A stretch of DNA of 64,000 nt from Prauserella flavalba (GTDB lineage Bacteria > Actinomycetota > Actinomycetes > Mycobacteriales > Pseudonocardiaceae), in assembly GCF_003202235.1 (NCBI RefSeq), contig NZ_MASU01000013.1:186001-250000 (forward strand), in the 5' to 3' direction. Made by a program: the position numbers and the translations under genes. The stretch's first letter is position 1. Every line of letters starts with the position of its first letter. This document shows positions 46,731-64,000 of this stretch, piece by piece. Under the pieces are notes generated by a model. The model was not told the origin of the DNA and did no database searches. It saw nothing but the letters and a program-made list of their open reading frames with translations.

Positions 46731-46733
46731 AGC

Positions 46734-48155: not shown

Positions 48156-48165
48156 GGCGGGGCCC

Positions 48166-49737: not shown

Positions 49738-50591
49738 TCGACGGCTACCCCGTGGTCGACGCGCACGTGCACGTGCCGCGGCTGTCGACCCTCAAACCGG
49801 CGTGGCTGGAGTGGGCGCGGCGGTTCTCGGGGCCGCACCCGTGGCGTTCCGTCTACGACTCCGACGGCGATCCCGTGCCCGAGCGGCTCGACGCGCTGTT
49901 CGAGGAGGAGGGCGTCGACCGGGCGCTGCTGTTCTGCGAGTACAGCCCGAGGGCCACTGGGATCCAGCCGATCGAGGACAACCTGCCGTTCGTGGAGTGC
50001 AACCCGCAGCGGTTCCGGCTCGTCGCCAACGTGAACCCGCACCTGCACCATCCGCTGGGGTCCGAAGTGGAGCGGCAACTGGACCTGGGCGCGGTGGCGC
50101 TCAAGCTGCATCCGGTGCACGGTGGGTTCTCCCCGGCCGACAAGGAGCTGTACCGCGCGTACCACGTGTGCGAGGAACGCGGCATCCCGGTGATCCTCCA
50201 CTCGGGCACGAGCAGCTTCCCCGGCGCGAGAACGATCTTCGGCGATCCCCAGCTGCTCACCGACGTGGTGGAGGACTTCCCGGACGTGCGGTTCGTTTTC
50301 GCGCACGGTGGCCGTGGGTGGTGGTATGACGCGGCGGCGTTTCTGGCGCTGGCCAAGGACAACGTGTGGCTCGATCTGGCGGGCTTGCCGCCGAAGAAGC
50401 TCCCCGAGTACTACGCGCGGTTCGATTTCGAAAGGCTGGCGACCCGTTTCGTCTTCGGTACCGATTGGCCTGGGGTGCCGGGCACGGCCCGCAACGTCCG
50501 CGCCCTCGCGGCACTCGGGCTCCCCGAGGAGGTACTGCGTGACGTCCTGGCCGGTAACGCGGCGAAGCTGTACCCGGGGCTGGCGATCTGA
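49734..50591 (+). CDS. Amidohydrolase-family metal-dependent hydrolase
   Basis: A 285-residue TIM-barrel hydrolase of the ACMSD-like amidohydrolase_2 family. Metal-site features are VVDAHVHVPRLST, LKLHPVHGGFSP, VILHSGTSSFPGA, FAHGGRGWWYDA and the catalytic aspartate in FVFGTDWPGVPG. The GTG start overlaps the bclA stop, making it the last gene of the box operon. It may feed the pathway by releasing benzoate from a precursor, or act on a ring-cleavage product; neither is established. Confidence 0.85.
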   Translation: MIDGYPVVDAHVHVPRLSTLKPAWLEWARRFSGPHPWRSVYDSDGDPVPERLDALFEEEGVDRALLFCEYSPRATGIQPIEDNLPFVECNPQRFRLVANVNPHLHHPLGSEVERQLDLGAVALKLHPVHGGFSPADKELYRAYHVCEERGIPVILHSGTSSFPGARTIFGDPQLLTDVVEDFPDVRFVFAHGGRGWWYDAAAFLALAKDNVWLDLAGLPPKKLPEYYARFDFERLATRFVFGTDWPGVPGTARNVRALAALGLPEEVLRDVLAGNAAKLYPGLAI

Positions 50592-50604
50592 CGCAGGCTG
50601 ACGC

Positions 50605-50833
50605 GCGAGTCGTGCGTTCCGGTTCGCGAGTCGTGCGTTCGGGTTCGCGAGTTGTGCGTTCCGGTTCGCGAGTCGCTCGCTCAGGCACGGCGTTTTCTGT
50701 TCGGGCACGCGAGGGCCCCGTACCGGCGCTCGAGTCGCGGCGAGGCTCGGGCCGAACGCACAACTCGCGATCGGGAGCGCACGACTCGCGGTCGGGAGTG
50801 CACGACTCGCGGTCGGGAGTGCACGACTCGCGA
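50605..50833. repeat. Inverted pair of 21-bp tandem arrays
   Basis: About 3.7 contiguous 21-bp units with core GCGAGTCGTGCGTTC run from 50605 to 50682. Four units of the reverse complement (core GCACGACTCGC) run from 50750 to 50833. The two arrays face each other across 67 bp, filling the whole 250-base gap between the convergent amidohydrolase and PaaX-like genes. The same unit is repeated at 53757-53853. There are no unique spacers, so it is not a CRISPR. A large stem-loop acting as a two-way terminator is plausible. Confidence 0.88.
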
Positions 50834-50841
50834 GTGAGGGG

Positions 50842-51705
50842 TCAGGCGGCTTCTCCGGCGGCCAGGCGTTCGTCCCAGCGGAGCTGGGCGGAGGGGCGCC
50901 ATTCGGCATGCCTGCGATGGAAGAGCTCGGCCGCCTTGGCTCCGCTCCAGCCCGTCGGCAGGAGGGCAGTCGGAAGCTGGGGGTCCAGGAAGGGGAATCG
51001 GCGCCATTCGTGCACGAGACGGGTCTGCGCGTCGAGCACGGCATCCCCGTCGGCAGGCTCCAGCGCCGCGAAGGCGCCCACGAACTCCTCGTACCGCGTC
51101 TCCAGGTTCCGCAGGTCCCACGCACGGGAGACCATCGTGGCCTCCTCGCCGATGCGGCCGTACGGACCGGTGAACGACAGCGCGTCGCCGAGGCCCAGAC
51201 CGGTGAGGATGTCGAGCGCCTCCGCCTCGCGCGAGGTATGGGGCGTGACCCACACGCCCGGGTCGGGCGAGCCGAAGCCCGCCCACGTCAGCTTGGTGCG
51301 CAGCTGGTGCCGAAGGTCCCGTTTGGCCTCGGGCACGGACACGAGCACCACGAGCCATTCGCCGTCCCACGTGCGCTCGGTGCTGCCGAAGTCGTAGATC
51401 CGCCGCGCGCCCTCGGTGAGTAGCTTGCGCCCCGGCTGCGTCAGCGACCACCGCACGCGCCTGCCGACGCGCTCCGACTCCAGCCAGCCCTCGGCGGCGG
51501 TGCGGGCCAGCGCCTGGCGCGCCGACTTCTCCTCCACGTCGAACATCGCCAGCGCGTCCACCAGCATGGACGTCCACACCGGACGATCACGGGGAAGCAC
51601 GAACTCGCCGAGCAACGTCATGAGCAACGACCGCGCGCTCATGTGGCTGACCTCGCGCCGTCTGCTCAGCACCGGTCTGCCGCGCCGCCCCTCCGCCGCC
51701 GGCAT
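50842..51705 (-). CDS. PaaX-like transcriptional repressor
   Basis: A 287-residue protein with the PaaX order. The N-terminal winged helix is MSARSLLMTLLGEFVLPRDR, then EEKSARQALARTAAEGWLES. The central domain has WDGEWLVVLVSVPEAKRDLR and the C-terminal domain GPYGRIGEEATMVSRAWDLR. PaaX represses phenylacetyl-CoA pathways in response to aryl-CoA. Next to a box cluster, benzoyl-CoA would be the logical effector. The start is ATG 51705 or MSARS at about residue 22. It is convergent with the box operon. Confidence 0.85.
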   Translation of the reverse strand: MPAAEGRRGRPVLSRRREVSHMSARSLLMTLLGEFVLPRDRPVWTSMLVDALAMFDVEEKSARQALARTAAEGWLESERVGRRVRWSLTQPGRKLLTEGARRIYDFGSTERTWDGEWLVVLVSVPEAKRDLRHQLRTKLTWAGFGSPDPGVWVTPHTSREAEALDILTGLGLGDALSFTGPYGRIGEEATMVSRAWDLRNLETRYEEFVGAFAALEPADGDAVLDAQTRLVHEWRRFPFLDPQLPTALLPTGWSGAKAAELFHRRHAEWRPSAQLRWDERLAAGEAA

Positions 51706-51755
51706 CGCGTCACCACCCTCATCGCTGATCCTGCGTGCCACTGGGCAGGGTAGCG

Positions 51756-52418
51756 TTACCCGCCCTGCCAGTCGCGCACGGCGGTGACCAGCGCGTCCGT
51801 CCACGCCCCGAGCCGTGCCTCGCCCTCGGCCGCGGACGCTCCCGTGGGGTCGCCGAGAACGCCGTTTTCGCTGACGCTGCGCACACCACCGCTGACCAGC
51901 CGGTCCATCAGCGCGGGCAACGGTGACGTGTTGCCGGGGACGCCGGGCAGCACGTCGCCGGGCCGCAGGTGGAGCAGCACCGACGTTTCCGTTCGCCCGG
52001 CGTGCGTGTCGTCGGGCGGCCCGCCGGGTGCCCACGCGAGCACGCGCCTGCCCTCCGAGCGCAGCAGGCGCACGGCCCTGCGCAGGGGTTCGAGGTTGCC
52101 GCCGTGCCCGTTGACGAACACGACACCGGCGAAGTGGTCGGCGGAGCGCGCCAGCTCGACGAGCACCAGCTCCAGCGCCTCCTGCCCGATCGACAGCGTC
52201 CCCGGGAAGCCCGCGTGTTCACCACTCGACCCGTACGGCAGCGCGGGCGCCACGACCACGCCAGGAACCTGGGAGGCGAGCCTGCGCGCCAACTCCTCGG
52301 CGACGGTGGTGTCGGTGTCGAGCGGCAGGTGCGGACCGTGCTGCTCGGTCGCTCCCAGCGGCACGGCCAGCAGCGCGCGCGGCACCTCGGGCCAGCGCAG
52401 GCCCGACAGGGCCGTCAC
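51756..52418 (-). CDS. mftE: Mycofactocin peptidase MftE (creatininase family)
   Basis: A 220-residue metal-dependent peptidase. Family metal ligands are seen in LGATEQHGPHLPLDTDTTVA, SSGEHAGFPGT, FVNGHGGNLEPLRRAV and DTHAGRTETS. In the known pathway MftE cuts the MftC-modified precursor MftA to release the C-terminal Val-Tyr-derived dipeptide (AHDP). GTG 52418 overlaps the mftF stop. It is the last gene of the mycofactocin operon here, so the order F-E is reversed relative to the mycobacterial A-B-C-D-E-F cluster. Confidence 0.9.
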   Translation of the reverse strand: MTALSGLRWPEVPRALLAVPLGATEQHGPHLPLDTDTTVAEELARRLASQVPGVVVAPALPYGSSGEHAGFPGTLSIGQEALELVLVELARSADHFAGVVFVNGHGGNLEPLRRAVRLLRSEGRRVLAWAPGGPPDDTHAGRTETSVLLHLRPGDVLPGVPGNTSPLPALMDRLVSGGVRSVSENGVLGDPTGASAAEGEARLGAWTDALVTAVRDWQGG

Positions 52419-53734
52419 CGCAGTGCACCCTCGGTGAACGCGGGCAGCAGCGGTGCGGGCGTGCGCTCGCGGAGGCTGCCCGTCCACACGCCGGCGCCGT
52501 AGGCGAGGTCGTCGGCGATCCGCAGTGCGAGCCAGGCCGGTGAGTGCCCGAGCGCTTCGGCGGCACACGGGACCAGCGCCGCGAGCAGCACGCGACGGCC
52601 CCGGCGGGTGAGCAGCGCGGCGGGCCACCACGCGCGGCGGGTGGCCTCCGCGAGCAGCCTGCCCGCGCCGAGATGCCCGAGCGCGGCGAGCCGCAGCGAC
52701 TCCGGCACCGGCACGCCCCGGCCCCGCAGCTTGCGCGGCAGCAGCGCCGTCGACCCTGCGGCGAGCGCGAGGGCGAGCCACGGCCTGCCGAGCGCCAGCA
52801 GCGCCCACGCCGCCGCGCTCCACGCCGACAGCCGCGCGGGGCTCAGCTTGCCGGGATGCCGCCGCGACAGCGGCGCCGCCGACGTGCCGTACTCGAACCG
52901 CTGCCGTAGCCACGGGCGCAGCGCGGCCCTCGGCTCGTGCGTCACCACGGCGGCGGGCTCGTAGCGCACGGCGCCGAATTCGAGCAGCCGCCACACCAGG
53001 TCGACGTCCTCGCCGAAGCGCAGGCCCGTGTCGAAACCGTCCACAGCGGACAGCGCGGAGCGGCGGACGACGAGCGCCGCGCTCGGCACGTAGCTCACGC
53101 GGCTCATCGGGCGCACCGGTGCGGGGCGGGAGCCGAGGTCGAGGCTCGACCGGTCCGCCTCGTACTGTGCGAGTGCGCCGTCGCCAGGAATGCTGCGGAT
53201 CCGGGGCGCCACCGCAAGCACGGTCGGGTCGGAGAACTGCGGCAGCAGCGCGTCCAGCCAGCCCGGCTCGGGTTCGGTGTCGGAGTCGAGGAACGCCACC
53301 AGCTCGGTGCCCGCGAGCCGCCATCCCGCGTTGCGGGCGGCGGCGGGTCCGCCGGGCCGTTCGTGCCGGACGCGGGCGCCGGGCAGCGGCTCGCGGGAGC
53401 CGTCGTCGACCACGATCCGCTCGGCCACCCCGTCCGTCGCGTCGAGCACCCGCTTGACACCGCCGGGGTTGTCCCTGACGGGCACCACCACGGTCACGTC
53501 CGCCGTGGTCAGCAGCGGCGGCGGACTCGGGTGCACGAGCCCGGCGTCGAGCAGCCTGCGCGCGAGCCGTTCCTCCGACGGACCGTCACCCAGCGGCTCG
53601 CCCGCGAGCCACCGGTCGAGCAGCCCGGTGCCCGCCTTGCCGAGCCGCACCAGGCGCAGCGGCGAGCCGCCGATGAGCAGGGGGCCGCGCCGGCGCACGG
53701 AGTCGTCGAGCGTGAGCCGCGTACCGGGCTTCAC
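52415..53734 (-). CDS. mftF: Mycofactocin glycosyltransferase MftF
   Basis: A 439-residue protein. A ~70-residue N-terminal MftF-type domain (RLTLDDSVRRRGPLLIGGSP) precedes a GT2 glycosyltransferase fold (VTVVVPVRDNPGGVKRVLDA, VVDDGSREPLPGARV, the metal-binding DSDTEPEPGWLD, FDTGLRFGEDVDLVWRLLEF). C-terminal hydrophobic helices (AWALLALGRPWLALALAAG) suggest membrane contact. The known role is oligoglucosylation of (pre)mycofactocin. GTG 53734 is chosen because AGGGAGG lies about 10 bases upstream; the longer frame runs through a 21-bp tandem array and gives a spurious ASRALPT repeat. Confidence 0.9.
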   Translation of the reverse strand: MKPGTRLTLDDSVRRRGPLLIGGSPLRLVRLGKAGTGLLDRWLAGEPLGDGPSEERLARRLLDAGLVHPSPPPLLTTADVTVVVPVRDNPGGVKRVLDATDGVAERIVVDDGSREPLPGARVRHERPGGPAAARNAGWRLAGTELVAFLDSDTEPEPGWLDALLPQFSDPTVLAVAPRIRSIPGDGALAQYEADRSSLDLGSRPAPVRPMSRVSYVPSAALVVRRSALSAVDGFDTGLRFGEDVDLVWRLLEFGAVRYEPAAVVTHEPRAALRPWLRQRFEYGTSAAPLSRRHPGKLSPARLSAWSAAAWALLALGRPWLALALAAGSTALLPRKLRGRGVPVPESLRLAALGHLGAGRLLAEATRRAWWPAALLTRRGRRVLLAALVPCAAEALGHSPAWLALRIADDLAYGAGVWTGSLRERTPAPLLPAFTEGALR

Positions 53735-53756
53735 GACGTGGGACCTCCCTCCGGAC

Positions 53757-53853
53757 GTACGACTCGCGGCCGGGAGCGCACGACTCGCGGTCGGGAGTGC
53801 ACGACTCGCGGTCGGGAGTGCACGACTCGCGGTCGGGAGTGCACGACTCGCGG
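53757..53853. repeat. 21-bp tandem array inside the mycofactocin operon
   Basis: Four complete 21-bp units (53770-53790, 53791-53811, 53812-53832, 53833-53853; core GCACGACTCGCGG), plus part of a fifth from 53757, fill the 127 bases between the SDR stop and mftF. The units are nearly identical to the right array at 50750-50833. The length per unit equals 7 codons, so it stays open in several frames and could mislead gene callers. Confidence 0.9.
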
Positions 53854-53861
53854 GGCGGGCT

Positions 53862-54641
53862 TCATGGTGCGAAGCCTCCGTCCGCGTGCACGACGGTGCC
53901 CGTGATGGCTGAGGACTCCGGCGAGCACAGGAAGCACACCGCCGCCGCGATCTCGTCGGGTTCCAGCAGCCGCTCCACCAGCTGGTGTGAGGCGAACTCC
54001 TCGACGTCACCGAGGTCGTAGAGGCGTGCCGTGGCCGTGAGCATCTCGGTGCGGGTCGACCCCGGCGACACCGCGGTCGCGCAGATGCCGGTGCCGCGCA
54101 GGTCGGTGGCGAGCCCTTTGACCAGGCCCACCACCGCGTGCTTGGCCGCGTTGTATCCGGCGAGGTGCCACAGGCCGTGGTGCGCGGCGGCCGACGCGAG
54201 CGCCACGAACCGGCCCTGCCGCGGCTCGGGGCGGCGCAGCAGGGCGGGGATCGCGGCGCGCGCGAGGTTGGCGACCCCCGTGACGCCGACGGAGAACAGC
54301 GCGTCCCATTCGGTGTCGTCGCTCTCCCACAGCGGCCGCCCGCCCGCGATGAGCGCGGCGGCGGCCACCGCGGCGTCGAGCCCGCCGAAGCGGTCCTCGG
54401 CGAGCGCGACCGCCGAGCGCAGCGCGGCCGGGTCCTGCACGTCGGCTACGACGTCGAGCACGGCGTCCGGGTACGAGGCGGCCAGCGCGGCCAGCTCCTC
54501 CCTGGTGCCGAGCGGGTACGGCACGCGGGGGTCGTCGGCGCAGCGGTCGACGGCCACCACCTGCCAGCCCGTGGTGGCCAGGCGCCGGACCACCGCCGCG
54601 CCGATTCCGCGGGCGGCACCGGTGACCAGCGCGACGCTCAC
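53862..54641 (-). CDS. Mycofactocin-coupled SDR family oxidoreductase
   Basis: A 259-residue short-chain dehydrogenase. The nucleotide site is VALVTGAARGIGAAVVRRLA, the catalytic motif AGYNAAKHAV (Tyr-x3-Lys), and later VSPGSTRTEMLTATARLYDL. Long insertions relative to typical SDRs (e.g. RVPYPLGTREELAALAASYP) match the type that keeps NAD tightly bound and depends on mycofactocin as external acceptor. It is embedded in the operon, with its GTG start overlapping the ETF beta stop. The alcohol substrate is unknown. Confidence 0.83.
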   Translation of the reverse strand: MSVALVTGAARGIGAAVVRRLATTGWQVVAVDRCADDPRVPYPLGTREELAALAASYPDAVLDVVADVQDPAALRSAVALAEDRFGGLDAAVAAAALIAGGRPLWESDDTEWDALFSVGVTGVANLARAAIPALLRRPEPRQGRFVALASAAAHHGLWHLAGYNAAKHAVVGLVKGLATDLRGTGICATAVSPGSTRTEMLTATARLYDLGDVEEFASHQLVERLLEPDEIAAAVCFLCSPESSAITGTVVHADGGFAP

Positions 54642-55498
54642 AGGTAGCCCTTGCCCCGCAGGTACTCCAGCAGCTCGTCGGCCGCCTCGGCCGGGTCGTC
54701 GGTGACGACGACGCGGGGCGGTTCGCGATGCTCATGCGCACCGGTGAGGCGCAGCAGCCGCAGCCGGGGGTCGGCCTCGGGTGGCGGGGGAAGCTCCTTG
54801 GCCCTCGGCCGGAACGGGCGCGCGGCGTGCGCGGTCACCGGTTCGGCGGCCACGGCGCCCGCGACCACCGGGATCTCGGCCCTGCGGGCGGCGAGCGTGG
54901 ACGGCAGCGCGGCCCTGCGCAGTCGCACCCCGGCGGGTTCGACCGAGCACACGGCCGGCAGCGGCACGGCGAGCCGTTCCCTGCGGCCCCGGTCGAGCCT
55001 GCGCAGAGCCAGCAGCTCACCGTCGGCATAGGACAGTTCCACGAGACCGAGTGCCTGCGCGCAGCCCAGCTCGGCGGCGAGGAACGCGGGGGTGCTGCCG
55101 GTGCCCCGGTCGGCCGAGTGGTCGCCGGTGAGCACGAGCGACGGCTCGCCGAGTTCCGTCCTGATCGCGTGTGCGAGCGCCCGCGCCGTGGTGGCACCGG
55201 AGTCGGGGACGCGGGAGTCCCACGACGGCACGTCCACGCGCAGCACGGCGTCCGCACCGCAGGCGAGCGCGTCGCGCAGCATCTCCTCGGCCGGTTCCGG
55301 GGCGAGCGTCACGGCGGCACAGCGGCCACCCGCGGCCTCGGCGATGCGCAGCGCGTGCTCCAGCGCGCACCGGTCCGCCTCGCTCGGGCCCGCCCCGCGC
55401 GGGTCGGTCTCGACCTCGCCCGAGAGCGGGTCGATCCTGGCGCGCGCGTCGGTCCAGCGCAGGAGGGCGACGATCAGCGGCATGAGCGATTCAGCCAT
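54638..55498 (-). CDS. Electron transfer flavoprotein beta-type subunit (mycofactocin-associated)
   Basis: A 286-residue ETF/FixA-like protein. It begins LIVALLRWTDARARIDPLSG and contains SEADRCALEHALRIAEAAGG, ALACGADAVLRVD, the ETF signature region LVLTGDHSADRGTGSTPAFL, and AAELGCAQALGLVELSYADG. It is divergent from housekeeping ETF beta but keeps the fold order. It overlaps the ferredoxin gene at the start and the SDR gene at the stop. With the ETF alpha-type subunit (57278-58210) it should form a heterodimer carrying electrons to the FixC-like protein. Confidence 0.83.
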   Translation of the reverse strand: MAESLMPLIVALLRWTDARARIDPLSGEVETDPRGAGPSEADRCALEHALRIAEAAGGRCAAVTLAPEPAEEMLRDALACGADAVLRVDVPSWDSRVPDSGATTARALAHAIRTELGEPSLVLTGDHSADRGTGSTPAFLAAELGCAQALGLVELSYADGELLALRRLDRGRRERLAVPLPAVCSVEPAGVRLRRAALPSTLAARRAEIPVVAGAVAAEPVTAHAARPFRPRAKELPPPPEADPRLRLLRLTGAHEHREPPRVVVTDDPAEAADELLEYLRGKGYL

Positions 55499-55787
55499 GA
55501 CGGAACACCACGCCCTGGCCGCCGTCGGGGTAGCTCCAGCTGATCGCGTCGCCGCCGTCGCACATCAGGTAGCACGTGCCGCACTCGAAGCACTGCTCGT
55601 AGTTGAACAGGATCCCGCCCTCGGCGGTGGGCACGAACAGGTTCGCCGGGCACGCGTGCACGCACGTCTTGGTGGTGCACGACCGGCACACGTCGGTGTC
55701 GACGACGATGTGCGGCTGCTCGGCCACCCGGAAGTCCACATGCGACATCCGGTCCTCGAACGAGACGTCGCTGTAACGCTGGTTCAC
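55491..55787 (-). CDS. FixX-like 4Fe-4S ferredoxin
   Basis: A 98-residue protein with two cysteine groups (CRSCTTKTCVHACP and CFECGTCYLMCD), as in the ferredoxin domain of ETF-quinone oxidoreductase. GTG 55787 is preferred: AGGAGG (55793-55798 on this strand) precedes it by 5 bases, while the other GTG at 55793 overlaps that site. It overlaps the ETF beta-type gene by 8 bases. A 109-bp repeat separates it from the FixC-like gene with which it must function. Confidence 0.88.
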   Translation of the reverse strand: MNQRYSDVSFEDRMSHVDFRVAEQPHIVVDTDVCRSCTTKTCVHACPANLFVPTAEGGILFNYEQCFECGTCYLMCDGGDAISWSYPDGGQGVVFRHG

Positions 55788-55801
55788 GGGCACCTCCTAG
55801 C

Positions 55802-55910
55802 TGCAGTGAAGGCCACCATGCCTGCGCCCATCCGTCTCCCGCCACCACCCAAACGGAGACGCTGCGCGCCACTGTGCTTGATCCATGCAGTGATGGTGGC
55901 CTTCACTGCG
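55802..55910. repeat. 109-bp long form of the repeat (MITE-like), copy B, inside the mycofactocin operon
   Basis: Equal in length and closely similar to 43243-43351, with the same landmarks (CCCGCCACCACCC core, terminal GCAGTGAAGG/CCTTCACTGC arms). It lies between the FixC-like stop (55936) and the ribosome site of the FixX-like gene, just 3 bases from AGGAGG. Neighbouring gene junctions in this stretch (mftB to mftC and on to the SDR) are all overlaps, which suggests a later insertion. Confidence 0.85.
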
Positions 55911-55935
55911 GATGGTTGGCTCATGGGGACACTCC

Positions 55936-57285
55936 TCACCCGAACGACCGCAGGCCGGTGAGCGCGTCCCTGGCCAGCTCGCGCATCTTCACGCCGTTGC
56001 GCTTCGCCGACGCGCGCAGCAGCTTCCGCACCCCGGGCTTGGGCCGGGGGTTCTCGACGGTGAACATCCCCTCGACCAGGTCGCACACCAGGCCCGGGTA
56101 GCGCTGCTGGACGCGTTCGGAGAGCACCAGCTCCGGCGCCTTGCGCAGCTTCTTGTGGTCGGCGAGCACGAACGACGACTCCAGCAGGGTCCGGTACGCG
56201 CGCAGGTCACCGAGGTCGCCTGAGGTCAGCGCCTTCGACGCCGCCCTGCCCGCGTACATCCCGGAGCCCATCGCGAAGTTCACGCCCTCCAGCCAGATCC
56301 CGGCCGCGAGGCACATCGCCGCCGCGTCGCCCGCGACGAGCAGGCCGTCGCCGACGAGCTGCGGCATGGTGTCGTAGCCGCCCTCGGGGATGAGGTGCGC
56401 CGAGTACTCCACCAGCTCGGCGCCGCGCACGAGCGGCTGGATCGACGGGTGCCGCTTCAGCTCGGCGAGCACCTCCTCGGGCCGCTTTCCGGCCTTCGCC
56501 AGCCCCTTCAGCCCCAGCACGAGCCCGACGCTGAGGGTGTCGTAGTTCGTGTAGAGGAACCCGCCACCGGGGATGCCCTGCGTGCAGCCGAGCATCTCGA
56601 TGTCGACGCCCTCGTGCCCGCTGACGCCGAACCGCTCGTCGATGGTCCGCGCGGGCAGCGCGAGCGTCTCCTTGACGCCGAGCGTGGTGTGCTCGGCCTG
56701 GTCTCCGGGGAAGAGCCCGGCCTGCTTGGCGAGGAACGAGTTCACACCGTCGCACGCGATCACGACCTTCGCGGTGAGGTCGCCGTCGGGGCGGTCGGTG
56801 CGCACGCCCACGACCCGGCCCCGTTCCGTGCACAGCAGCCGCGTGGCCACGGTGGACGGGACGAGCACCGCGCCCGCCTTCTGCGCGTGCCCCGCGAGCC
56901 AGTCGTCGAACTCGGCGCGGTAGGTCGTGGCGCCGTTGTACGGCGCGCGACCCCAGTTCTGGCTGCGGAAGTCCACGGTCATCGAGCGCTCGCCGTCGAG
57001 CAGCATGGTCTGCCGCCGTGTGATCCAGCGCTGCACCGGCATCTCGTCGTACCAGCCGGGGATCAGCTCGTCGAGGATCCGGCCGTACACCACACCGCCG
57101 TAGACGTTCTTCGCGCCGGGGAACGGTCCGCGTTCCAGCAGCGCCACCGAATTCCCCGCGCGGGCCAGCTCCAGTGCCGCAGCCGAGCCCGCGGGGCCCG
57201 CGCCGACCACGATCGCGTCGAACTGCGGGCGCTCCGGTTCCGCCACGGTCACCGCGGAGCTCGCGGGTCCTGCCCTGTCACGCAT
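55936..57285 (-). CDS. ETF-quinone oxidoreductase-like flavoprotein (FixC-like)
   Basis: A 449-residue FAD protein. The nucleotide motif is AIVVGAGPAGSAAALELARA. Further motifs are GAKNVYGGVVYGRILDELIP, VIACDGVNSFLAKQAGLF, and VGDGLLVAGDAAAMCLAAGI with LEGVNFAMGSGMYAG. These follow FixC/ETF dehydrogenases that reduce quinone with electrons from ETF. The iron-sulphur part is a separate gene (FixX-like). The start overlaps the ETF alpha-type stop region by 8 bases. Its place in the mycofactocin operon suggests re-oxidation of mycofactocinol through the quinone pool. Confidence 0.88.
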   Translation of the reverse strand: MRDRAGPASSAVTVAEPERPQFDAIVVGAGPAGSAAALELARAGNSVALLERGPFPGAKNVYGGVVYGRILDELIPGWYDEMPVQRWITRRQTMLLDGERSMTVDFRSQNWGRAPYNGATTYRAEFDDWLAGHAQKAGAVLVPSTVATRLLCTERGRVVGVRTDRPDGDLTAKVVIACDGVNSFLAKQAGLFPGDQAEHTTLGVKETLALPARTIDERFGVSGHEGVDIEMLGCTQGIPGGGFLYTNYDTLSVGLVLGLKGLAKAGKRPEEVLAELKRHPSIQPLVRGAELVEYSAHLIPEGGYDTMPQLVGDGLLVAGDAAAMCLAAGIWLEGVNFAMGSGMYAGRAASKALTSGDLGDLRAYRTLLESSFVLADHKKLRKAPELVLSERVQQRYPGLVCDLVEGMFTVENPRPKPGVRKLLRASAKRNGVKMRELARDALTGLRSFG

Positions 57286-58210
57286 CCTTGCTCCCGGGAG
57301 TGTCCAAGCGGCGAGCCAGTTCCCGCAGCAGCTCCTGCGCGTCGGTGACCAGCCCGAGGTCGGCCATCGCCGTCATGGGCGAGCTGCCGTCGGTGTTCAC
57401 GGACACGACGTGGCGCGGGTTGCCGAGACCGCCGGTGTGCTGGGTGGCGCCGGAGACCCCGAACGCCACGTACAGATCCGGATCGACGACCACGCCGGTG
57501 GTGCCGATCTGCCGTTCGTAGGGCGCCCAGCCCGCGTCGGTGACCACGCGCGTCGCGCCGACGGACGCGCCCAGCGCCGAGGCGACCTCGCCGAGCAGCG
57601 CGAGCGACTCCGGCCCGGTGAGGGCACCCCTCGCCAGGCCGGCGCCCGCACCGAGGATGCGCGGGGCCTCCGCGAGGTCCGCGGTCGCCGGGTCGGGGTC
57701 GAGCACCTCGAGCACACGCGCGTCGGGAGAGTCCGGGACGTCCAGGTCGACGTGGGTGACCTCGGGCGTTCCCTCCGCGGGGGCGCTGCCGCGCACGCCG
57801 GGCACGAGCGTCGCGACGAACGGCCCCGACGTCTCCACGGTCACCGAGAGCCTGCCGTCCCAGCGGGCGAGGTCCGCGCAGCTTTCGCCGATCCGCACCG
57901 CACCGGCCAGCAGCGGCCGGTCGAGCTCGGCGGCGAGGCGGGGCGCGAAATCCCTGCCGTCGGCGGAAGCGGGCAGTACGACACGGCGCACGTCCCGCAG
58001 CAGCGGCGCGAGCGCGCTCGCCCACGCCCCCGCGGCGAAGTCACCGGCCTCGACGCACCACGCGCGCCGCAGCGGCAGTTGGCCGACAGCCTCGGCACAT
58101 CCGGAGCCGACGAGCAGCGCGTGCCCGTCCGCCTCGGCCACGGCCTCGTCCCCGCCGAGCGGGGGCACACCACGGCGGATCACCAGCAGCGCAAGGGAGT
58201 TCACGTTCAC
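57278..58210 (-). CDS. Electron transfer flavoprotein alpha-type subunit (mycofactocin-associated)
   Basis: A 310-residue protein with an ETF alpha C-terminal FAD domain: APRILGAGAGLARGALTGPE, RVVTDAGWAPYERQIGTTGV, DPDLYVAFGVSGATQHTGGL and VVSVNTDGSSPMTAMADLGL. The N-terminal half is reduced and diverged. The SGATQHTGG loop and the arginine in YERQIGTTG are the expected FAD contacts. GTG 58210 overlaps the preceding flavoprotein stop; GTG 58204 is an alternative. It pairs with the beta-type subunit encoded three genes downstream. Confidence 0.85.
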   Translation of the reverse strand: MNVNSLALLVIRRGVPPLGGDEAVAEADGHALLVGSGCAEAVGQLPLRRAWCVEAGDFAAGAWASALAPLLRDVRRVVLPASADGRDFAPRLAAELDRPLLAGAVRIGESCADLARWDGRLSVTVETSGPFVATLVPGVRGSAPAEGTPEVTHVDLDVPDSPDARVLEVLDPDPATADLAEAPRILGAGAGLARGALTGPESLALLGEVASALGASVGATRVVTDAGWAPYERQIGTTGVVVDPDLYVAFGVSGATQHTGGLGNPRHVVSVNTDGSSPMTAMADLGLVTDAQELLRELARRLDTPGSKDA

Positions 58211-60171
58211 AATGCCACCGCCACCCGGTGTCCCTCGACCACGGCGGCGTGGGCGCGGCGCGGGGCCACGCAGTCACCGGCGCGGTACACCTCGAACTCG
58301 GCCGAGCCCGAGAGCTCGTGCCACAGCCCGTCCTCCGGCGCCTGGTGCGTCGCGCACACCACCCAGTCACAGCGCACGTCGGTGGTTGATCCGGTGGTGT
58401 GCGTCAGCACCTGCAGCCGCACACCACCGGCGTCCTCCTCGGCACCCAGCACGACCTCGTCGGTGGTCTGGGTGATCCCTTTCGCGGCGGCCCGCACGTT
58501 GAAGGTCTCCATGTCCAGCGTCACGCCGAGGTCCTGGCCCACGACCATGCCCGACGTCGAGATCCGCACGGTGCAGCCACGGTCGGCGAGCAGCTCGGCC
58601 ACCGACGTCGCCTGGTGGAAGCCGAGGTCGTCGATCACCACGACCTCGCCCTCGGGGGTGACCCGGCCCTCCAGCACGTCCCGCACGTCGACGATCCGCT
58701 CGATGCCGCCCGCCCACCACGGCGCCTGCGGTTTCGCGCCGGTCGCCAGCACCACGACCTCCGGCTTCAGCGCGCGGATCTCGTCGGCGGTCGCCGTGAC
58801 ACCCGTGCGCACGTCCACGCCGTAGCGGTGGCACTCCGAGAGCGAGTTGCGCACCACGTCGAGGAACTCGGCTCGGCTCGGCACGCTCGCGGCCTCACTC
58901 ACCTGCCCGCCCGTGGTCTGGTTGCGCTCCAGCAACGTCACCTCGTGCCCGCGTTCCGCGGCCGTCGCCGCGGCCTGCAGCCCGGCGGGCCCACCGCCCA
59001 CCACCACGACCCGGCGGCCCCGCCGCGTCGGCATCGGCAGCGCGACGCTCTCCTTGCCCGTGCGCGGGTTCTCGATGCAGCCCAGCCAGCGGTTGAGACC
59101 CATGCGGCCAACGCATTCCTGGTTGCACGACAGGCACGTGCGGATCTCCGTGGCGTGGCCCGCGCGGGCCTTGGCGACGAAGTCGGCGTCGGCGATCTGC
59201 CCGCGCACCACGCCGATCAGGTCCGCGTGGCCCTCGGCGAGCGCGCGGTCGGCCTGCAACGGGTCCTTGAACCGGCCGACGCCCACCACCGGCAGGTCCA
59301 CCGCCTTGCGCAGCGCGCTCGGGATGAACATCGCGTAGCCGGGCGGGATGCTCATCGACGCCTCGATCATGTACAGCGTCGACGTGGCGACCCCGATCGA
59401 GGTGTTGATGTAGTCGACGTGCCCGCTCGCCTCGACCCACCTGGCGACCTCGACGGCCTCGTCGATCGTGGTGCCGCCCTCGATCAGCTCGTCGCCGCAG
59501 AGCCGCACGCCCAGCGCGAGGCCGGGCCCGATCGCCTCACGCACCGCGGCCACGAGCCGCAGCAGGATCCGCGCGCGGTTCTCCAGCGAACCGCCGTAGT
59601 CGTCGGTGCGGACGTTGGTGGCGGGGGAGAGGAAGCCGCGCACGATCGAGGAGTGCGAGCACTGCAGCTCCACGCCGTTGAACCCGCCCGCCCGGCAGTG
59701 CTCGGCGACCTTCGCGTACCCGGCCACGATCTCGTCGATCTCGGCGACCGTGACGGCCTTCGGCACCTCGCGGAACAGCGGGTCGGGCACGGGCGAGGGT
59801 GCCCACACCGGCAGCCGCGAGTACATGCTCGACGCCTGCCCGCCGTTGTGGTTGAGCTGGGCGAAGATCGGCACGCCGTGCGCGTGCACCGCCTCGGTGA
59901 TCCGCCGGTAGCCCGGAATCACCTCGGGGTGGAAGCCGTGGATGAGCTTCTCGTACGGCCAGTCCGTCGGATGGGTCGAGTGCTCCTCGGTGATGATGAG
60001 CCCCGCGCCGCCCTTGGCGCGCGCCGCGTAGTAGGCCGCGTGCTGCTCGCTCGGCAGCCCTTCCTTCGCGTAGTTCGTCAGGTGTGCGGAGAACACCACG
60101 CGGTTGGCCAGCGTCACCGGGCCCAGCCGCAGCGGCGAGAACAGGTAACGGTAACGGCTCGTTGCGCTCAT
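58207..60171 (-). CDS. Mycofactocin-system FadH/OYE family oxidoreductase 2
   Basis: A 654-residue flavoprotein built like 2,4-dienoyl-CoA reductase. The N-terminal old-yellow-enzyme barrel (~1-350) has LRLGPVTLANRVVFSAHLTN, GGAGLIITEEHSTHPTDW and GGSLENRARILLRLVAAVRE. The 4Fe-4S site CLSCNQECVGRMGLNRWLGC has all four cysteines. The C-terminal FAD/NAD part begins RRVVVVGGGPAGLQAAATAA. Its ATG overlaps the stop of the first OYE gene. Such genes mark mycofactocin loci, but their substrates are not established. Confidence 0.88.
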   Translation of the reverse strand: MSATSRYRYLFSPLRLGPVTLANRVVFSAHLTNYAKEGLPSEQHAAYYAARAKGGAGLIITEEHSTHPTDWPYEKLIHGFHPEVIPGYRRITEAVHAHGVPIFAQLNHNGGQASSMYSRLPVWAPSPVPDPLFREVPKAVTVAEIDEIVAGYAKVAEHCRAGGFNGVELQCSHSSIVRGFLSPATNVRTDDYGGSLENRARILLRLVAAVREAIGPGLALGVRLCGDELIEGGTTIDEAVEVARWVEASGHVDYINTSIGVATSTLYMIEASMSIPPGYAMFIPSALRKAVDLPVVGVGRFKDPLQADRALAEGHADLIGVVRGQIADADFVAKARAGHATEIRTCLSCNQECVGRMGLNRWLGCIENPRTGKESVALPMPTRRGRRVVVVGGGPAGLQAAATAAERGHEVTLLERNQTTGGQVSEAASVPSRAEFLDVVRNSLSECHRYGVDVRTGVTATADEIRALKPEVVVLATGAKPQAPWWAGGIERIVDVRDVLEGRVTPEGEVVVIDDLGFHQATSVAELLADRGCTVRISTSGMVVGQDLGVTLDMETFNVRAAAKGITQTTDEVVLGAEEDAGGVRLQVLTHTTGSTTDVRCDWVVCATHQAPEDGLWHELSGSAEFEVYRAGDCVAPRRAHAAVVEGHRVAVAL

Positions 60172-62090
60172 CGGTGCACCGCCAGTGGTTTCGCGGCGAA
60201 CGCCAGCGCGGCCCTGCGGCCCTCCAGTACGGCCTCGTGCACCGATCGCGGGGCCACGCGGTCGCCCGCCTCCACCATCCCGGCCGGAACCGGGGTGGGA
60301 TCGGGCAGCCGGTGTCCACAGTGGATCAGGGTGGCGCACTCGAGCTCGGTGGCCGTGCCGGTGTAGGCGTCGGTGACCACCACGTGACCCGCGTGCACCT
60401 CGCGCAGCAGGCTCCGCTTCGCGAGCCGCACCCCCGCGCGCTGCAGGCGCGCGTTGGCGTCGGCGAGGTCGCCGGTGAGCGCGAGCTGCGTGCCCACCAC
60501 CTGGTCCTGCGTGATGATCGTGGTCGGCCTGCCCGCGGCAGCGGCCAGCTCGGCGATGCCGACGCCCACGGCGTCGCCCACCGGGTCGTAGACCGCGACC
60601 GGCCCCTCCGGCAGGCGGTCGGGCGCGGTGAGCAGGTCGACGACGTCGAGCACGAACCCGCCGTCGCGCACGGTGTACCTGCGCGGTCCGGCGACCGATC
60701 CGGTCGCGACCACGACGTCGCCGGACAGCTCCGCCAGGTCGGCCTCGGTGTTCACCGCGACCTCCACGCCGAGCCGGTGCACCTCGGCCACGAGCCAGCG
60801 CGCGAGGTTGCCAAGACGGTCGCGGCCCGGCACGCGGGCGGCCAGGGTAAGCATCCCGCCCAGCGCGGCCTCCCGCTCGACCAGGCGCACCCGGTGCCCG
60901 CGCAGGGCGAGCACGCGCGCGGCCTCCAGCCCGGCAGGGCCGCCGCCGACGACGAGCACCGACCGCGCGGGATCGGTGCCGGCAGTGCCGTCGACGGGCG
61001 CGTCGCCGGTCTCGTGCCCGCTGCGGGGGTCGCCGATGCAGCTGACGATCGGGTTACGGTTGTCGCGGACCCTGCACTTCTGGTTGGTGAGCGTGCACGG
61101 CCGCACGGGCTCCGCCGTGCCGAGCTTGCGCACCAGCTCCGCGTCCGCGATCTGCGCGCGCGTCATCTCCACCAGGTCGGCCACGCCGTCGGCGAGCGCC
61201 TGCTCGGCCTGCCCGGGCTCCACCACCGAGCCCTGGAGGATCACCGGCGCCGCACCGGCCACCGCCTCGCGGATGCCGCGGCACAGCTCGGTGTTGAAGC
61301 CCGGCTCGGTGTGCGAGTCGGGGCGCGTGGCCGAGGTGCCCATCGCGGAACCGCGCACCACGACGAGGTAGTCGACCCCGCGGGCGAGGTCCTTCGCGAC
61401 CTCCCGCGCCTGTTCGGGCGTGATCCCCGCCCACGGCGCCAGCTCGTCACAGGAGAGGCGCAGGCCGAGCACCCGGCCGTCGCCGATGCGGGCCCGCACC
61501 GCGGCGAGCACCTCACGCAGCAGCAGGGCCTTGTCGGTGCCGTAGGCGTCGCCGCGCTGGTTGGTCAGCCCCGAGAGGAACTGCCGCAGCAGCGCGTGCT
61601 GGCCCGCGTCCACCTCCACCCCGTCGAGGTCCGCTTCCACGGCCAGCTCGGCGGCGCGCGTGAACCCGGCCACCACCGCGCGGATCTCGGCGGCCTCCAT
61701 CTCCATCGGCATCTCGCGGCTCGCCACGTCCGGCACCCGCGAGGGCGCCCACAGCGCCTGCTGCGAGAACGCCGACGAGCCCTGCGAGCCCGCGTGGCCG
61801 AGTCCCGCGAGCACGAGCGTCCCGTGTGGACGGCAGGCCTGCACGACGGACGCCCAGCCTTCACCGCAGTCGGCGGCGAGCGGGGCCCGCTCGTAGGGCC
61901 AGTCCGAGTCGTGGACGCTGGCCGTCTCGGTGACGATCAGCCCCGCACCGCCGGCGGCGCGGCGTTCGTAGTAGGCCACGTGGGCCGCCGAGATCGCCCT
62001 GCCGCGGGCGAGGTTCGTCTCGTGTGGTCCGAAGAGCACGCGCGACGGTGCGCGGCGACCGGCCAGCGTGACCGGTTCGGTGAGTTTCAC
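60168..62090 (-). CDS. Mycofactocin-system FadH/OYE family oxidoreductase 1
   Basis: A 640-residue paralog of the next gene with the same barrel plus FAD/NAD layout (SRVLFGPHETNLARGRAISA, GGAGLIVTETASVHDSDW, SVLVVGGGPAGLEAARVLAL). In the iron-sulphur region it reads CTLTNQKCRVRDNRNPIVSC: threonine replaces the second of the four cysteines seen in the paralog, so the cluster may be lost or changed. GTG 62090 overlaps the mftC stop (GTGA). The two OYE proteins share roughly the same length and may have arisen by duplication. Confidence 0.87.
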   Translation of the reverse strand: MKLTEPVTLAGRRAPSRVLFGPHETNLARGRAISAAHVAYYERRAAGGAGLIVTETASVHDSDWPYERAPLAADCGEGWASVVQACRPHGTLVLAGLGHAGSQGSSAFSQQALWAPSRVPDVASREMPMEMEAAEIRAVVAGFTRAAELAVEADLDGVEVDAGQHALLRQFLSGLTNQRGDAYGTDKALLLREVLAAVRARIGDGRVLGLRLSCDELAPWAGITPEQAREVAKDLARGVDYLVVVRGSAMGTSATRPDSHTEPGFNTELCRGIREAVAGAAPVILQGSVVEPGQAEQALADGVADLVEMTRAQIADAELVRKLGTAEPVRPCTLTNQKCRVRDNRNPIVSCIGDPRSGHETGDAPVDGTAGTDPARSVLVVGGGPAGLEAARVLALRGHRVRLVEREAALGGMLTLAARVPGRDRLGNLARWLVAEVHRLGVEVAVNTEADLAELSGDVVVATGSVAGPRRYTVRDGGFVLDVVDLLTAPDRLPEGPVAVYDPVGDAVGVGIAELAAAAGRPTTIITQDQVVGTQLALTGDLADANARLQRAGVRLAKRSLLREVHAGHVVVTDAYTGTATELECATLIHCGHRLPDPTPVPAGMVEAGDRVAPRSVHEAVLEGRRAALAFAAKPLAVHR

Positions 62091-63283
62091 GGCCGGAAAC
62101 CTGCCAGCGGGCTCGTGTCGCACGCGCGGTCAGGCAGGCGGTCGGGCTCCGGTGGGCCCCAGCCGATGCTGACGCCGACGCGCTTGGTCCGGTTGGGCTT
62201 GGAGTGGTCCTTGTCCGGCTTCGGCTTCTCCGAGCCGCCGCCGACGAGGGCGAGCGCGCGCTCCCCGTTGCCCTTGACGCATTCGGGATCGGGGCCGTCG
62301 AGCGGAAGGCCCGTGAAGAACTTGGCGGCCATGCAGCCGCCCTGGCACGAGTCGTAGGCGGAGCAAGACGTGCACGCGCCACCGGTCTGCGGGGCGCGCA
62401 GCCGCTCGAACAGCTCGGATGTGCGCCAGACGGACGTGAACCCGCCCTCGTCACGCACGTTGCCCGCGAGGAACTCGTCGTGGATCGCGAACGGGCACGC
62501 GTACACGTCGCCGATCGGGTCGATGAGGCACACCACGCGCCCCGCACCACACAGGTTCAGGCCCGGCAGCGGGGTGGAGCCGAGCGCGTTGAGGTGGAAG
62601 AACGAGTCGCCGGTGAGCACGTTCTCGCCGTGGTCGATCAGCCACTCGTACAGCTTGAGCTGCTGGTCGGCCGTGGGGTGCAGCTCGTCCCACGTGTCGG
62701 CGCCCCGGCCCGACGGCCGCAGTCGCGTGATGCGCAGCTGCGCCCCGTATTCGTCGGCGATGCGCTTGAACTCGTCGAGCTGGCCGACGTTGTGGCGCGT
62801 CATCACGACGCTGATCTTGAAGTCCTTGAAGCCCGCGTCGCGCAGGTTCTCCATCGCCCGCATGGTGGTGTTGAACGAGCCCGGCCCGCGCACGTAGTCG
62901 TTGACCTCGGCGGTGGCGCCGTCGAGCGACAGCTGCACGTCGACGTAGTCGGTGCCGGCGAGCCAGCGGGCCCGCTCCGGGGTGATGCGCACGCCGTTGG
63001 TGGAGAACTTCACGCCCACGTTGTGCGCGACGGCGTAGTCGACCAGCTCCCAGAAGTCGGGCCGGATCGTGGGCTCGCCGCCGCCGATGTTGACGTAGAA
63101 CACCTGCAGGCGCTGCAGTTCGTCGATGACGGCCTTGCATTCCTCAGTGGACAGTTCGCGCGGGTCGCGGCGGCCCGACGAGGAAAGGCAGTGCACGCAG
63201 GAGAGGTTGCAGGCGTAGGTCAGTTCCCACGTGAGGCAGATGGGGGCGTCCAGCCCGTGCTGGAAGTGCTCGACGAGTTTCAT
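62087..63283 (-). CDS. mftC: Mycofactocin radical SAM maturase MftC
   Basis: A 398-residue radical SAM/SPASM enzyme. The radical SAM cluster is CNLSCVHC in LTWELTYACNLSCVHCLSSS. Glycine-rich and SAM motifs are VNIGGGEPTIRP and VQLSLDGATAEVNDYVRG. The SPASM cysteines include NLCGAGRVVCLIDPIGDVYA and CTSCSAYDSCQGGCMAAKFF. It decarboxylates and cyclises the C-terminal Val-Tyr of MftA with MftB as carrier. A basic ~50-residue C-terminal tail (EKPKPDKDHSKPNRTKRVGV) follows. Its ATG overlaps the mftB stop. Confidence 0.97.
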   Translation of the reverse strand: MKLVEHFQHGLDAPICLTWELTYACNLSCVHCLSSSGRRDPRELSTEECKAVIDELQRLQVFYVNIGGGEPTIRPDFWELVDYAVAHNVGVKFSTNGVRITPERARWLAGTDYVDVQLSLDGATAEVNDYVRGPGSFNTTMRAMENLRDAGFKDFKISVVMTRHNVGQLDEFKRIADEYGAQLRITRLRPSGRGADTWDELHPTADQQLKLYEWLIDHGENVLTGDSFFHLNALGSTPLPGLNLCGAGRVVCLIDPIGDVYACPFAIHDEFLAGNVRDEGGFTSVWRTSELFERLRAPQTGGACTSCSAYDSCQGGCMAAKFFTGLPLDGPDPECVKGNGERALALVGGGSEKPKPDKDHSKPNRTKRVGVSIGWGPPEPDRLPDRACDTSPLAGFRP

Positions 63284-63564
63284 GAGGTCCCTCTTGCTTC
63301 GATCGTGCCCGCGGACAGCAGCCCGGCGAGCGCGTCGAGATAGCGCTGCTGCTCCGCCTCGGGTACCTCGGCGGAGAGGAGCGCGGAACGAGCGTCGGGC
63401 TGGTTCTCGAGTTCCCGGACGACGTTCACCAGCAGCTGCGTCTTGAGAAACGAGAGCTTGCGCGTGGTGAAGTCGTAGACGAGAGCGCCGAACGGTTCCG
63501 GCCGTAACGCGACTGAGGAGCTCAGCCGGTACGGCCGGTCCGGGGCGAACTGATCAGTAGACAC
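63280..63564 (-). CDS. mftB: Mycofactocin precursor-binding chaperone MftB
   Basis: A 94-residue PqqD-like peptide-binding protein (RRE). It contains PYRLSSSVALRPEPFGALVY and DFTTRKLSFLKTQLLVNVVR, the usual MftB core. It binds MftA and presents it to MftC. GTG 63564 lies within the end of mftA (overlap of 11 bases), a strong sign of co-translation. Confidence 0.95.
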   Translation of the reverse strand: MSTDQFAPDRPYRLSSSVALRPEPFGALVYDFTTRKLSFLKTQLLVNVVRELENQPDARSALLSAEVPEAEQQRYLDALAGLLSAGTIEARGTS

Positions 63565-63643
63565 CGCACATGCCGTCGATCGACACCTCTTCGACGAGCA
63601 GGTCTTCCTCGACGGTGACCTCGGTGGCGGCGGATTCGTTCAT
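63554..63643 (-). CDS. mftA: Mycofactocin precursor peptide MftA
   Basis: A 29-residue peptide on the minus strand. Acidic leader segments (TEVTVEEDLLVEEV) precede the invariant C-terminal core IDGMCGVY. The final Val-Tyr pair becomes the redox-active mycofactocin core. GAGGAG (63653-63658) precedes the ATG at good distance. It is short and easily missed by gene callers. It heads the leftward operon, 52 bases from the palindrome before mftR. Confidence 0.97.
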   Translation of the reverse strand: MNESAATEVTVEEDLLVEEVSIDGMCGVY

Positions 63644-63695
63644 GGCAAGCTACTCCTCACTGAGCAGGTTGTTGTGACCGACGGCACGAGCATAA

Positions 63696-63710
63696 TGGCA
63701 CCGGGTGCCA
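63696..63710. promoter_or_regulatory. Probable MftR operator
   Basis: TGGCACC, one base, GGTGCCA forms a perfect 7-bp inverted repeat in the 68-base gap between divergent mftA and mftR, directly before the likely mftR start. On the mft strand it lies next to CATTATGCT, a possible -10 region, so binding would block both directions. Confidence 0.65.
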
Positions 63711-63711
63711 A

Positions 63712-64000
63712 ATGGAAGGGATCGGGGCGAAAGCGGTGGCGGAACCATCCGTTCGGCCAGGTAGACGCCGGTCGACGAGTCAGCACGAGCTGGAGGCCGT
63801 GGCCTTCGAGCTGTTCGAGCGCGAGGGCTTCGACGCCACCACCGTCGACGCGATCGCGAAGAGCGCGGGTATCGGCAGACGCACGTTCTTCCGGTATTTC
63901 GAGTCCAAGAACGACGTGGTCTGGGGGTCGTTCACCGAGCAGCTCGACCACATGCGGGAACGGTTCGCGCAGCGGCCGGCCGACGAGCCGCTCATGGAGT
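63712..64000 (+). CDS. mftR: TetR-family mycofactocin regulator MftR (cut by window edge)
   Basis: The first ~96 codons of a TetR regulator. The HTH reads SQHELEAVAFELFEREGFDA, then TTVDAIAKSAGIGRRTFFRY and FESKNDVVWG. This is the normal MftR-type N-terminus with GIGRRTFFRYFESKNDVVWG. The start is ATG 63712 or in-frame GTG 63736. It is divergent from mftA. In mycobacteria MftR represses the mft operon and is relieved by acyl-CoA ligands. The C-terminal ligand domain is outside the window. Confidence 0.88.
   Translation, partial: MEGIGAKAVAEPSVRPGRRRSTSQHELEAVAFELFEREGFDATTVDAIAKSAGIGRRTFFRYFESKNDVVWGSFTEQLDHMRERFAQRPADEPLME

Follow-up and report, generated by a model that had tools for sequence, protein, structure and literature searches.

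A possible second, perhaps oxygen-independent, route to mycofactocin, suggested by an electron-transfer flavoprotein block that a soil-bacterium gene cluster carries and that occurs mainly in the absence of MftD

The mycofactocin operon and its flavoprotein genes

As the subject of this analysis, a 64,000-nucleotide stretch of the Prauserella flavalba genome (contig NZ_MASU01000013.1, positions 186,001 to 250,000; hereafter the window) carries a mycofactocin (mft) operon that includes genes for two Old Yellow Enzyme (OYE) proteins, an electron-transfer flavoprotein (ETF) and a short-chain dehydrogenase/reductase (SDR). The operon lies on the minus strand and extends from 63643 (mftA) to 51756 (mftE); its genes are arranged as mftA-mftB-mftC-OYE1-OYE2-etfA-fixC-fixX-etfB-SDR-mftF-mftE. 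An earlier note on this DNA had described these genes as running in one direction with mostly overlapping stops and starts. All of them were found, and the junctions are mainly overlapping, except for a gap of 142 nt between fixC and fixX and one of about 120 nt between the SDR gene and mftF; the starts of mftF, mftE and OYE1 are inferred.

Of the genes expected in a mycofactocin biosynthesis cluster, mftA, mftB, mftC and mftF are present. The MftA precursor (63554..63643), a peptide of 29 amino acids ending in IDGMCGVY, was identified by reading the sequence, and curated NCBIfam cut-offs are passed by mftB (63280..63564; TIGR03967, 107.8 bits against a cut-off of 33), the radical SAM maturase gene mftC (62087..63283; TIGR03962, 658.6 bits), the glycosyltransferase gene mftF (52415..53740; TIGR03965, 459.5 bits), the peptidase gene mftE (51756..52418; TIGR03964, 266 bits) and the mycofactocin-coupled SDR (53862..54641; TIGR04504, 412 bits). 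Divergent from mftA, at the mftR position, an open reading frame on the plus strand (63712..64000, truncated at the window's end) was recognized by eye as a TetR-like regulator.

The remaining genes of the operon encode redox proteins. OYE1 (60168..62090; TIGR03996, 858 bits) is a mycofactocin FadH/OYE 1 protein with Thr in place of the second cluster cysteine. OYE2 (58207..60171; TIGR03997, 996 bits) is a mycofactocin FadH/OYE 2 protein with a flavin mononucleotide (FMN) barrel, a C-x2-C-x3-C-x11-C motif and a Rossmann half. Like the two OYEs, ETF alpha (mft_etfA, 57278..58210; NF038209, 455 bits) and ETF beta (mft_etfB, 54638..55498; TIGR04503, 366 bits) score above the curated cut-offs of their NCBIfam models; the etfA genes of the window and of P. 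endophytica share 95% identity. A FixC-like ETF:quinone oxidoreductase flavoprotein (55936..57285) and a FixX-like ferredoxin with eight cysteines in two [4Fe-4S] motifs (55491..55793) were recognized by models below cut-off (PF21162 for FixC; NF011993 for FixX, at 60 bits under a cut-off of 166). Among solved structures FixC matches the FixC chain 7koe_C at E 1.6e-75 and the ETF-ubiquinone oxidoreductase 2gmh_A at 1.4e-17. Both proteins thus resemble parts of an ETF:quinone oxidoreductase, as the earlier note had supposed.

In the window's own genome (8.09 Mb on 39 contigs, with completeness listed as 100) no match to TIGR03966, the model for the premycofactocin synthase MftD, was found above cut-off anywhere, the cluster included. 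The earlier note had not commented on the missing mftD and mftG. For MftG, neither TIGR03970 nor TIGR04542 gave a match above cut-off in the 8.09 Mb, NF038210 not being searched; the best MftG-model score, 332 bits, falls within the range of glucose-methanol-choline (GMC) proteins in genomes without mft genes, for example G130 and G141.

Conservation of the block and its alternation with mftD

All comparisons were made within Actinomycetota. Among 297 genomes sampled from the window's family, mft_etfA is above cut-off in 45 and mftC in 139. Every one of the 45 has mftC, and mft_etfA is above cut-off in none of the 158 family genomes that lack mftC, so that the earlier note's view of the ETF/FixC/FixX/OYE set as a dedicated mycofactocin module stands. 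For the ETF, this comparison is the one by which the earlier note had proposed that its idea could be refuted. An ETF for general fatty-acid metabolism was considered and rejected: all 297 genomes contain some etfA-like match, and only mftC genomes have one above the 240-bit cut-off, non-mft matches reaching at most 153 bits among those listed. The earlier note had also thought the association undescribed; this was not borne out, as the NCBIfam model names mft_etfA, mft_etfB and mycofact_OYE_1/2 reveal that annotators had already noticed it. Among the open-licence PMC papers listed in our searches, none had a title or abstract opening that gives these genes a function.

In the family sample the core order OYE2-etfA-fixC-fixX-etfB is repeated in 12 genera, and it is met in other families too; the arrangement is therefore not due to chance. 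Two peptide patterns, applied to 84,980 species genomes in a wider scan, picked out 354 etfA-related stretches, of which the best 80 were taken as loci; fixC is present in 79 of these, fixX in 75, etfB in 74 and an OYE2 match in 73 (some partial at contig ends). The hosts include Pseudonocardiaceae, metagenome-assembled genomes (MAGs) named Acidimicrobiaceae, Microthrixaceae and Ilumatobacteraceae, Frankia, Streptomyces viridiviolaceus, Kitasatospora and others. Three MAG records (L196, L197 and L211) are titled Bifidobacterium breve; these titles appear wrong, since L196 and Actinobacteria bacterium IMCC26207 (L193) have an identical mftC.

Within the family the block and mftD nearly exclude each other. 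MftD is encoded above cut-off in 104 of the 297 genomes, all of them with mftC. For a two-by-two count, 136 mftC genomes were used: three from one genus with a partial etfA (G172, G195 and G215) were dropped, and the split mftD of G248 and the partial mftD of G163 were scored as present. ETF alone occurs in 29, mftD alone in 90, both in 16 and neither in one (Fisher p 5e-17); in other words, mftD is found in 90 of 91 ETF-less mftC genomes versus 16 of 45 ETF genomes. The single genome with neither, G234, is 84% complete. The three genomes dropped belong to a genus with smaller genomes and have degraded mft clusters (L095-L097) without mftD above cut-off; two of these loci still retain fixC and fixX at full length. 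At two further loci (L104 and L117, in G012 and G052) etfB fragments lie beside mftE and mftD now adjoins mftC; these may be relics of a lost ETF block.

The alternation is also seen between close relatives. In the window's genus three genomes carry the ETF and no mftD, and one carries mftD and no ETF; the same alternation occurs within genera g15, g20 and, mostly, g26, being less clean in g25 and g46. In the ETF-less congener of the window (G014) the SDR gene directly follows OYE2; therefore the four genes etfA, fixC, fixX and etfB come and go as a unit. A quick IQ-TREE phylogeny of mftC (161 rows, with some long branches flagged) gave 12 pairs that differ in ETF on supported branches without a shared path (25 when weak branches are counted). 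As means over 200 pairings, mftD differed in the opposite direction in 9.7 of the 12, in the same direction in 0.0 and not at all in 2.3 (median sign-test p 0.002). Opposite switches in independent pairs indicate that the exclusion is not a single event inherited by many descendants.

Outside the family sample the pattern recurs in two further sets. One comprises 46 ETF genomes from the best 80 loci, 43 of them outside the family and many of them MAGs whose completeness is untold; mftD is above cut-off in two. The other is an evenly sampled set of 356 genomes of the phylum, each at least 90% complete, with mftC in 66, namely the window's own genome and 65 others. In these 65, mftD is above cut-off in 53, mft_etfA in eight, and both in none. 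The remaining four have no mftD and an mft_etfA below cut-off, yet OYE2-etfA-fixC-fixX adjoins mftC in each: in G518, G651 and G667 ETF beta and mftF come next and OYE1 is missing from the block, while G668 has OYE1 and an unmatched open reading frame of 295 amino acids at the expected etfB position. Peptides of MftA type lie upstream of mftC in three of the four. Altogether, OYE2, etfA and fixC are present in 12 of the 12 mftD-less mftC genomes of the phylum sample, 11 of which show fixX and 10 an etfB match; OYE2 sits on another contig in G430 and G520, and the contig of G611 ends inside fixC. One genome appears under two handles with identical coordinates (G332 and G595), and is thus in both the 46-genome and the phylum counts and twice in the OYE2 count given below.

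OYE2 as a putative AHDP dehydrogenase, and competing explanations

Which of the two OYE proteins belongs with the block can be judged from their covariation with it. OYE2 (TIGR03997) is above cut-off in 48 of 55 ETF entries (54 distinct genomes) and in none of 25 mftD-only genomes; of the seven misses, four are fragments (G302, G320, G333 and G338), G668 is just below cut-off, and two (G318 and G325), in which the contig with etfA begins at or just before that gene, have a weaker match only. We compared alignment columns in the family between ETF-bearing and ETF-less rows (45 and 12 for OYE2, 45 and 11 for OYE1, with L071 and L073 left out), a separating column being at least 95% fixed in the former and so in at most 25% of the latter. 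There are 24 such columns in OYE2 and none in OYE1. In genus g26, identity to the window's mftC is 82-85% whether or not ETF is present, and for OYE2 it is 79-82% with ETF and 68-69% without.

In the larger row sets (126-134 rows for the OYE2, EtfB and FixX columns, some genomes being included twice), all but one of 127 ETF rows (126) retain His169 of OYE2, and 9 of 12 ETF-less rows have Gln; Cys221 and Asp299 are each present in 127 of 127 ETF rows versus 3 of 12. His169 aligns with the His of the histamine dehydrogenases 3k30 and 6de6 and of 6l6j, and with a Glu in FadH (1ps9); the equivalent active-site residue of trimethylamine dehydrogenase is presumably His172. OYE2 shares an FMN barrel, a four-Cys [4Fe-4S] motif, a Rossmann half and an active-site His with the ETF-linked amine dehydrogenases, although its overall sequence would not place it in that family. 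The four cluster cysteines are almost invariant in OYE2, and the second is lost from OYE1 in 45 of 109 ETF rows. OYE1 was demoted as a substitute for MftD on this loss, on the lack of any ETF-tracking column and on its absence from three blocks. At seven loci (L101, L114, L119, L124, L125, L139 and L140) OYE1/OYE2 clusters occur without ETF, with mftD elsewhere and Gln in OYE2 at the position of the active-site His; this replacement suggests a changed function for OYE2 in such clusters.

EtfA retains the FAD domain (PF00766), and the eight cysteines of FixX are invariant in 134 of 134 rows. In an alignment with 4kpu_B, which we take to be from the ETF of A. fermentans, Arg131 of the window's EtfB falls on the Gly123 site; of 126 EtfB rows, 82 have Arg here and 32 have Gly, 31 of the latter from genus g25/Saccharopolyspora. 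That Gly is described in passages of PMC12630350 as invariant in bifurcating ETFs, canonical AMP-type ETFs carrying bulkier residues. We infer a plain path from ETF to ETF:quinone oxidoreductase.

Passages of PMC7491314 report that MftD converts AHDP (3-amino-5-[(4-hydroxyphenyl)methyl]-4,4-dimethyl-2-pyrrolidinone) to premycofactocin (PMFT), which is missing in the mutant, and an excerpt of PMC8406134 describes the step as aerobic. Pno, a relative of trimethylamine and histamine dehydrogenases, is presented in part of PMC7688666 as an FMN/[4Fe-4S]/ADP enzyme that deaminates its substrate via EtfAB and EtfQO to quinone, with clustered genes and the oxygen derived from water. The module in the window has the same parts as the Pno system and occurs mainly where MftD is missing, and it is from this combination that our proposal for OYE2 comes: the OYE2-EtfA-FixC-FixX-EtfB block is, we think, probably a replacement for MftD. 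OYE2 would act in the manner of an ETF-linked amine dehydrogenase whose substrate is AHDP, its FMN carrying out the oxidative deamination of AHDP (or glycosylated AHDP) to premycofactocin; MftD performs this chemistry as an aerobic flavoenzyme. Electrons would pass from the FMN to the [4Fe-4S] cluster of OYE2, on to the dedicated EtfAB, and from there through FixC/FixX, acting as a split ETF:quinone oxidoreductase, to menaquinone rather than O2. A fuller claim would be that there is another premycofactocin synthase, independent of oxygen, in which an amine dehydrogenase of Old-Yellow type, served by a dedicated ETF and a split ETF:quinone oxidoreductase, takes the place of an aerobic flavoenzyme, that the making of this peptide-derived redox cofactor would itself feed the quinone pool, and that Actinomycetota have switched many times between the two solutions; for this we see about even chances.

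Several observations weigh against the replacement of MftD. MftD genes are also carried, as mentioned above, by 16 of the 45 ETF genomes of the family and by 2 of the other 46. Four of the 16 (G046, G079, G128 and G232) contain another mft cluster in which mftD lies near mftC, and in the rest mftD is far off or on a different contig; one of the 16 mftD genes is split and two score 526-538 bits versus at least 570 for most. In g5, a Pseudonocardia-like genus, the sole ETF genome has mftD and MftG as well. OYE2 is closer in sequence to the reductases NCR and FadH, its nearest solved relatives, than to the amine dehydrogenases, and has Gln at the position of their Tyr. Both OYEs are kept with mftD and without ETF in several family genera, and they therefore have, or have gained, another role. 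Finally, MftG (counted in the genome samples by TIGR03970 only) is rarer with ETF: it is above cut-off in 4 of 72 ETF genomes (2/45 in the family, 0/12 in the phylum sample and 2/15 others) versus 46 of 144 ETF-less mftC genomes (31/91 and 15/53 in the family and phylum samples).

This last pattern is predicted if the module reoxidizes SDR-made mycofactocinol (MFTH2) through the ETF and FixC/FixX to quinone in place of MftG, which is close to what the earlier note had proposed in a self-contained module returning mycofactocin electrons. The quinone-reductase-like character of FixC and FixX fits such a role, and menaquinone is a thermodynamically favourable acceptor according to passages of PMC11778925. 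The same passages put mftC genomes without MftG at about 25% and leave the replacement open, and the explanation would answer what serves them. However, 55 of 91 family and 38 of 53 phylum ETF-less mftC genomes already lack MftG (in this family count only, five scores just below cut-off were scored as MftG); MftG can thus be lost without the ETF, whereas genomes that have lost mftD nearly always carry it. In addition, two further ETF genomes, IMCC26207 and Streptomyces viridiviolaceus, have MftG above cut-off, and the source of premycofactocin in mftD-less genomes would be left unexplained. We accordingly demoted the ETF as an MftG substitute, most ETF-less genomes tested being without MftG too, and regard reoxidation as the main job of the module as unlikely, because the module tracks the absence of mftD. 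An outlier among the ETF genomes, G241, has three MftG-type proteins above cut-off.

It is doubtful, and somewhat more so, that the module does both jobs, with OYE2 (or OYE1) and the ETF branch carrying out AHDP deamination as well as mycofactocinol oxidation, so that a single outlet to quinone would stand in for both MftD and MftG. The OYE genes usually come as two paralogues, and in 28 of the 45 ETF genomes of the family neither mftD nor mftG is found; nevertheless OYE1 is missing from the block at three loci, and the mftG part is weakly linked. As a radical SAM enzyme MftC needs a reductant, and a FixABCX-type bifurcating complex could supply it with low-potential electrons, the four subunit kinds being the same and FixC best matching the solved FixC 7koe_C. 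Yet all 53 mftD genomes of the phylum sample have MftC without mft_etfA above cut-off, and the site at which bifurcating ETFs, by the criterion given in part of PMC12630350, have an invariant Gly is occupied by Arg131 in the EtfB of the window. Bifurcation for MftC was demoted on this residue and appears very improbable, the 32 of 126 EtfB rows that do have Gly coming, in all but one case, from a single genus that constitutes the exception.

With replacement of MftD as the preferred explanation, we see here a variant mycofactocin cluster that lacks MftD and is widespread, and that has been annotated without being explained; the comparison suggests that its block serves the synthesis of the cofactor and not its reoxidation. 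If this is true, families annotated merely as mycofactocin-associated would acquire a specific, testable job, ETF biochemistry would gain a new client, and it would be explained how many mftC genomes manage without the enzyme that mycobacteria need for premycofactocin. The route may also explain mycofactocin in organisms living with little or no oxygen. As for the MftG-less genomes, a question that the MftG paper of 2025 leaves open, our results suggest that the ETF is not simply the missing MftG.

Surroundings of the operon and comparison with known systems

Other features were noted in and around the operon. Tandem repeats of 21 nt (CGGGAGYGCACGACTCGCGGT type) occupy two intergenic sites 3 kb apart (50604-50853 and 53730-53873) that flank mftE/mftF. 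The 142-nt gap between fixC and fixX (55794-55935) contains, by eye, an inverted repeat (GCAGTGAAGGCCACCAT / ATGGTGGCCTTCACTGC) and resembles a small mobile palindrome inside the operon. Adjoining the operon, the region 45006-51750 carries boxC, boxB, a benzoate-CoA ligase gene and a PaaX-like regulator; a benzoate-CoA ligase-like gene was likewise seen by eye near the mft operon of the congener G014.

Among known systems, the MftD-type cluster (mftABCDEF) has mftA, mftB, mftC, mftE, mftF and a mycofactocin-coupled SDR in common with the window; it contains mftD, whereas the window has OYE1, OYE2 and etfA-fixC-fixX-etfB in the operon and no mftD above cut-off. The window's proteins are members of the NCBIfam families mft_etfA, mft_etfB, mycofact_OYE_1 and mycofact_OYE_2, whose names state an association and not a tested function. 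FixABCX shares the subunits EtfA, EtfB, FixC and FixX and the eight FixX cysteines, but the EtfB of the window is without the bifurcation Gly and its set is linked to mycofactocin. MftG is likewise a proposed outlet of mycofactocin-linked electrons to respiration; it is, in contrast, a GMC flavoprotein, and is not above cut-off in the window's genome by TIGR03970 or TIGR04542. Pno and the histamine and trimethylamine dehydrogenases resemble OYE2 in combining an FMN barrel, a [4Fe-4S] cluster and a Rossmann half with an active-site His, and Pno, as in the window, has a clustered ETF and quinone outlet; OYE2 differs from these enzymes in lying nearer to the reductases, in its Gln for Tyr and in a substrate that is putative.

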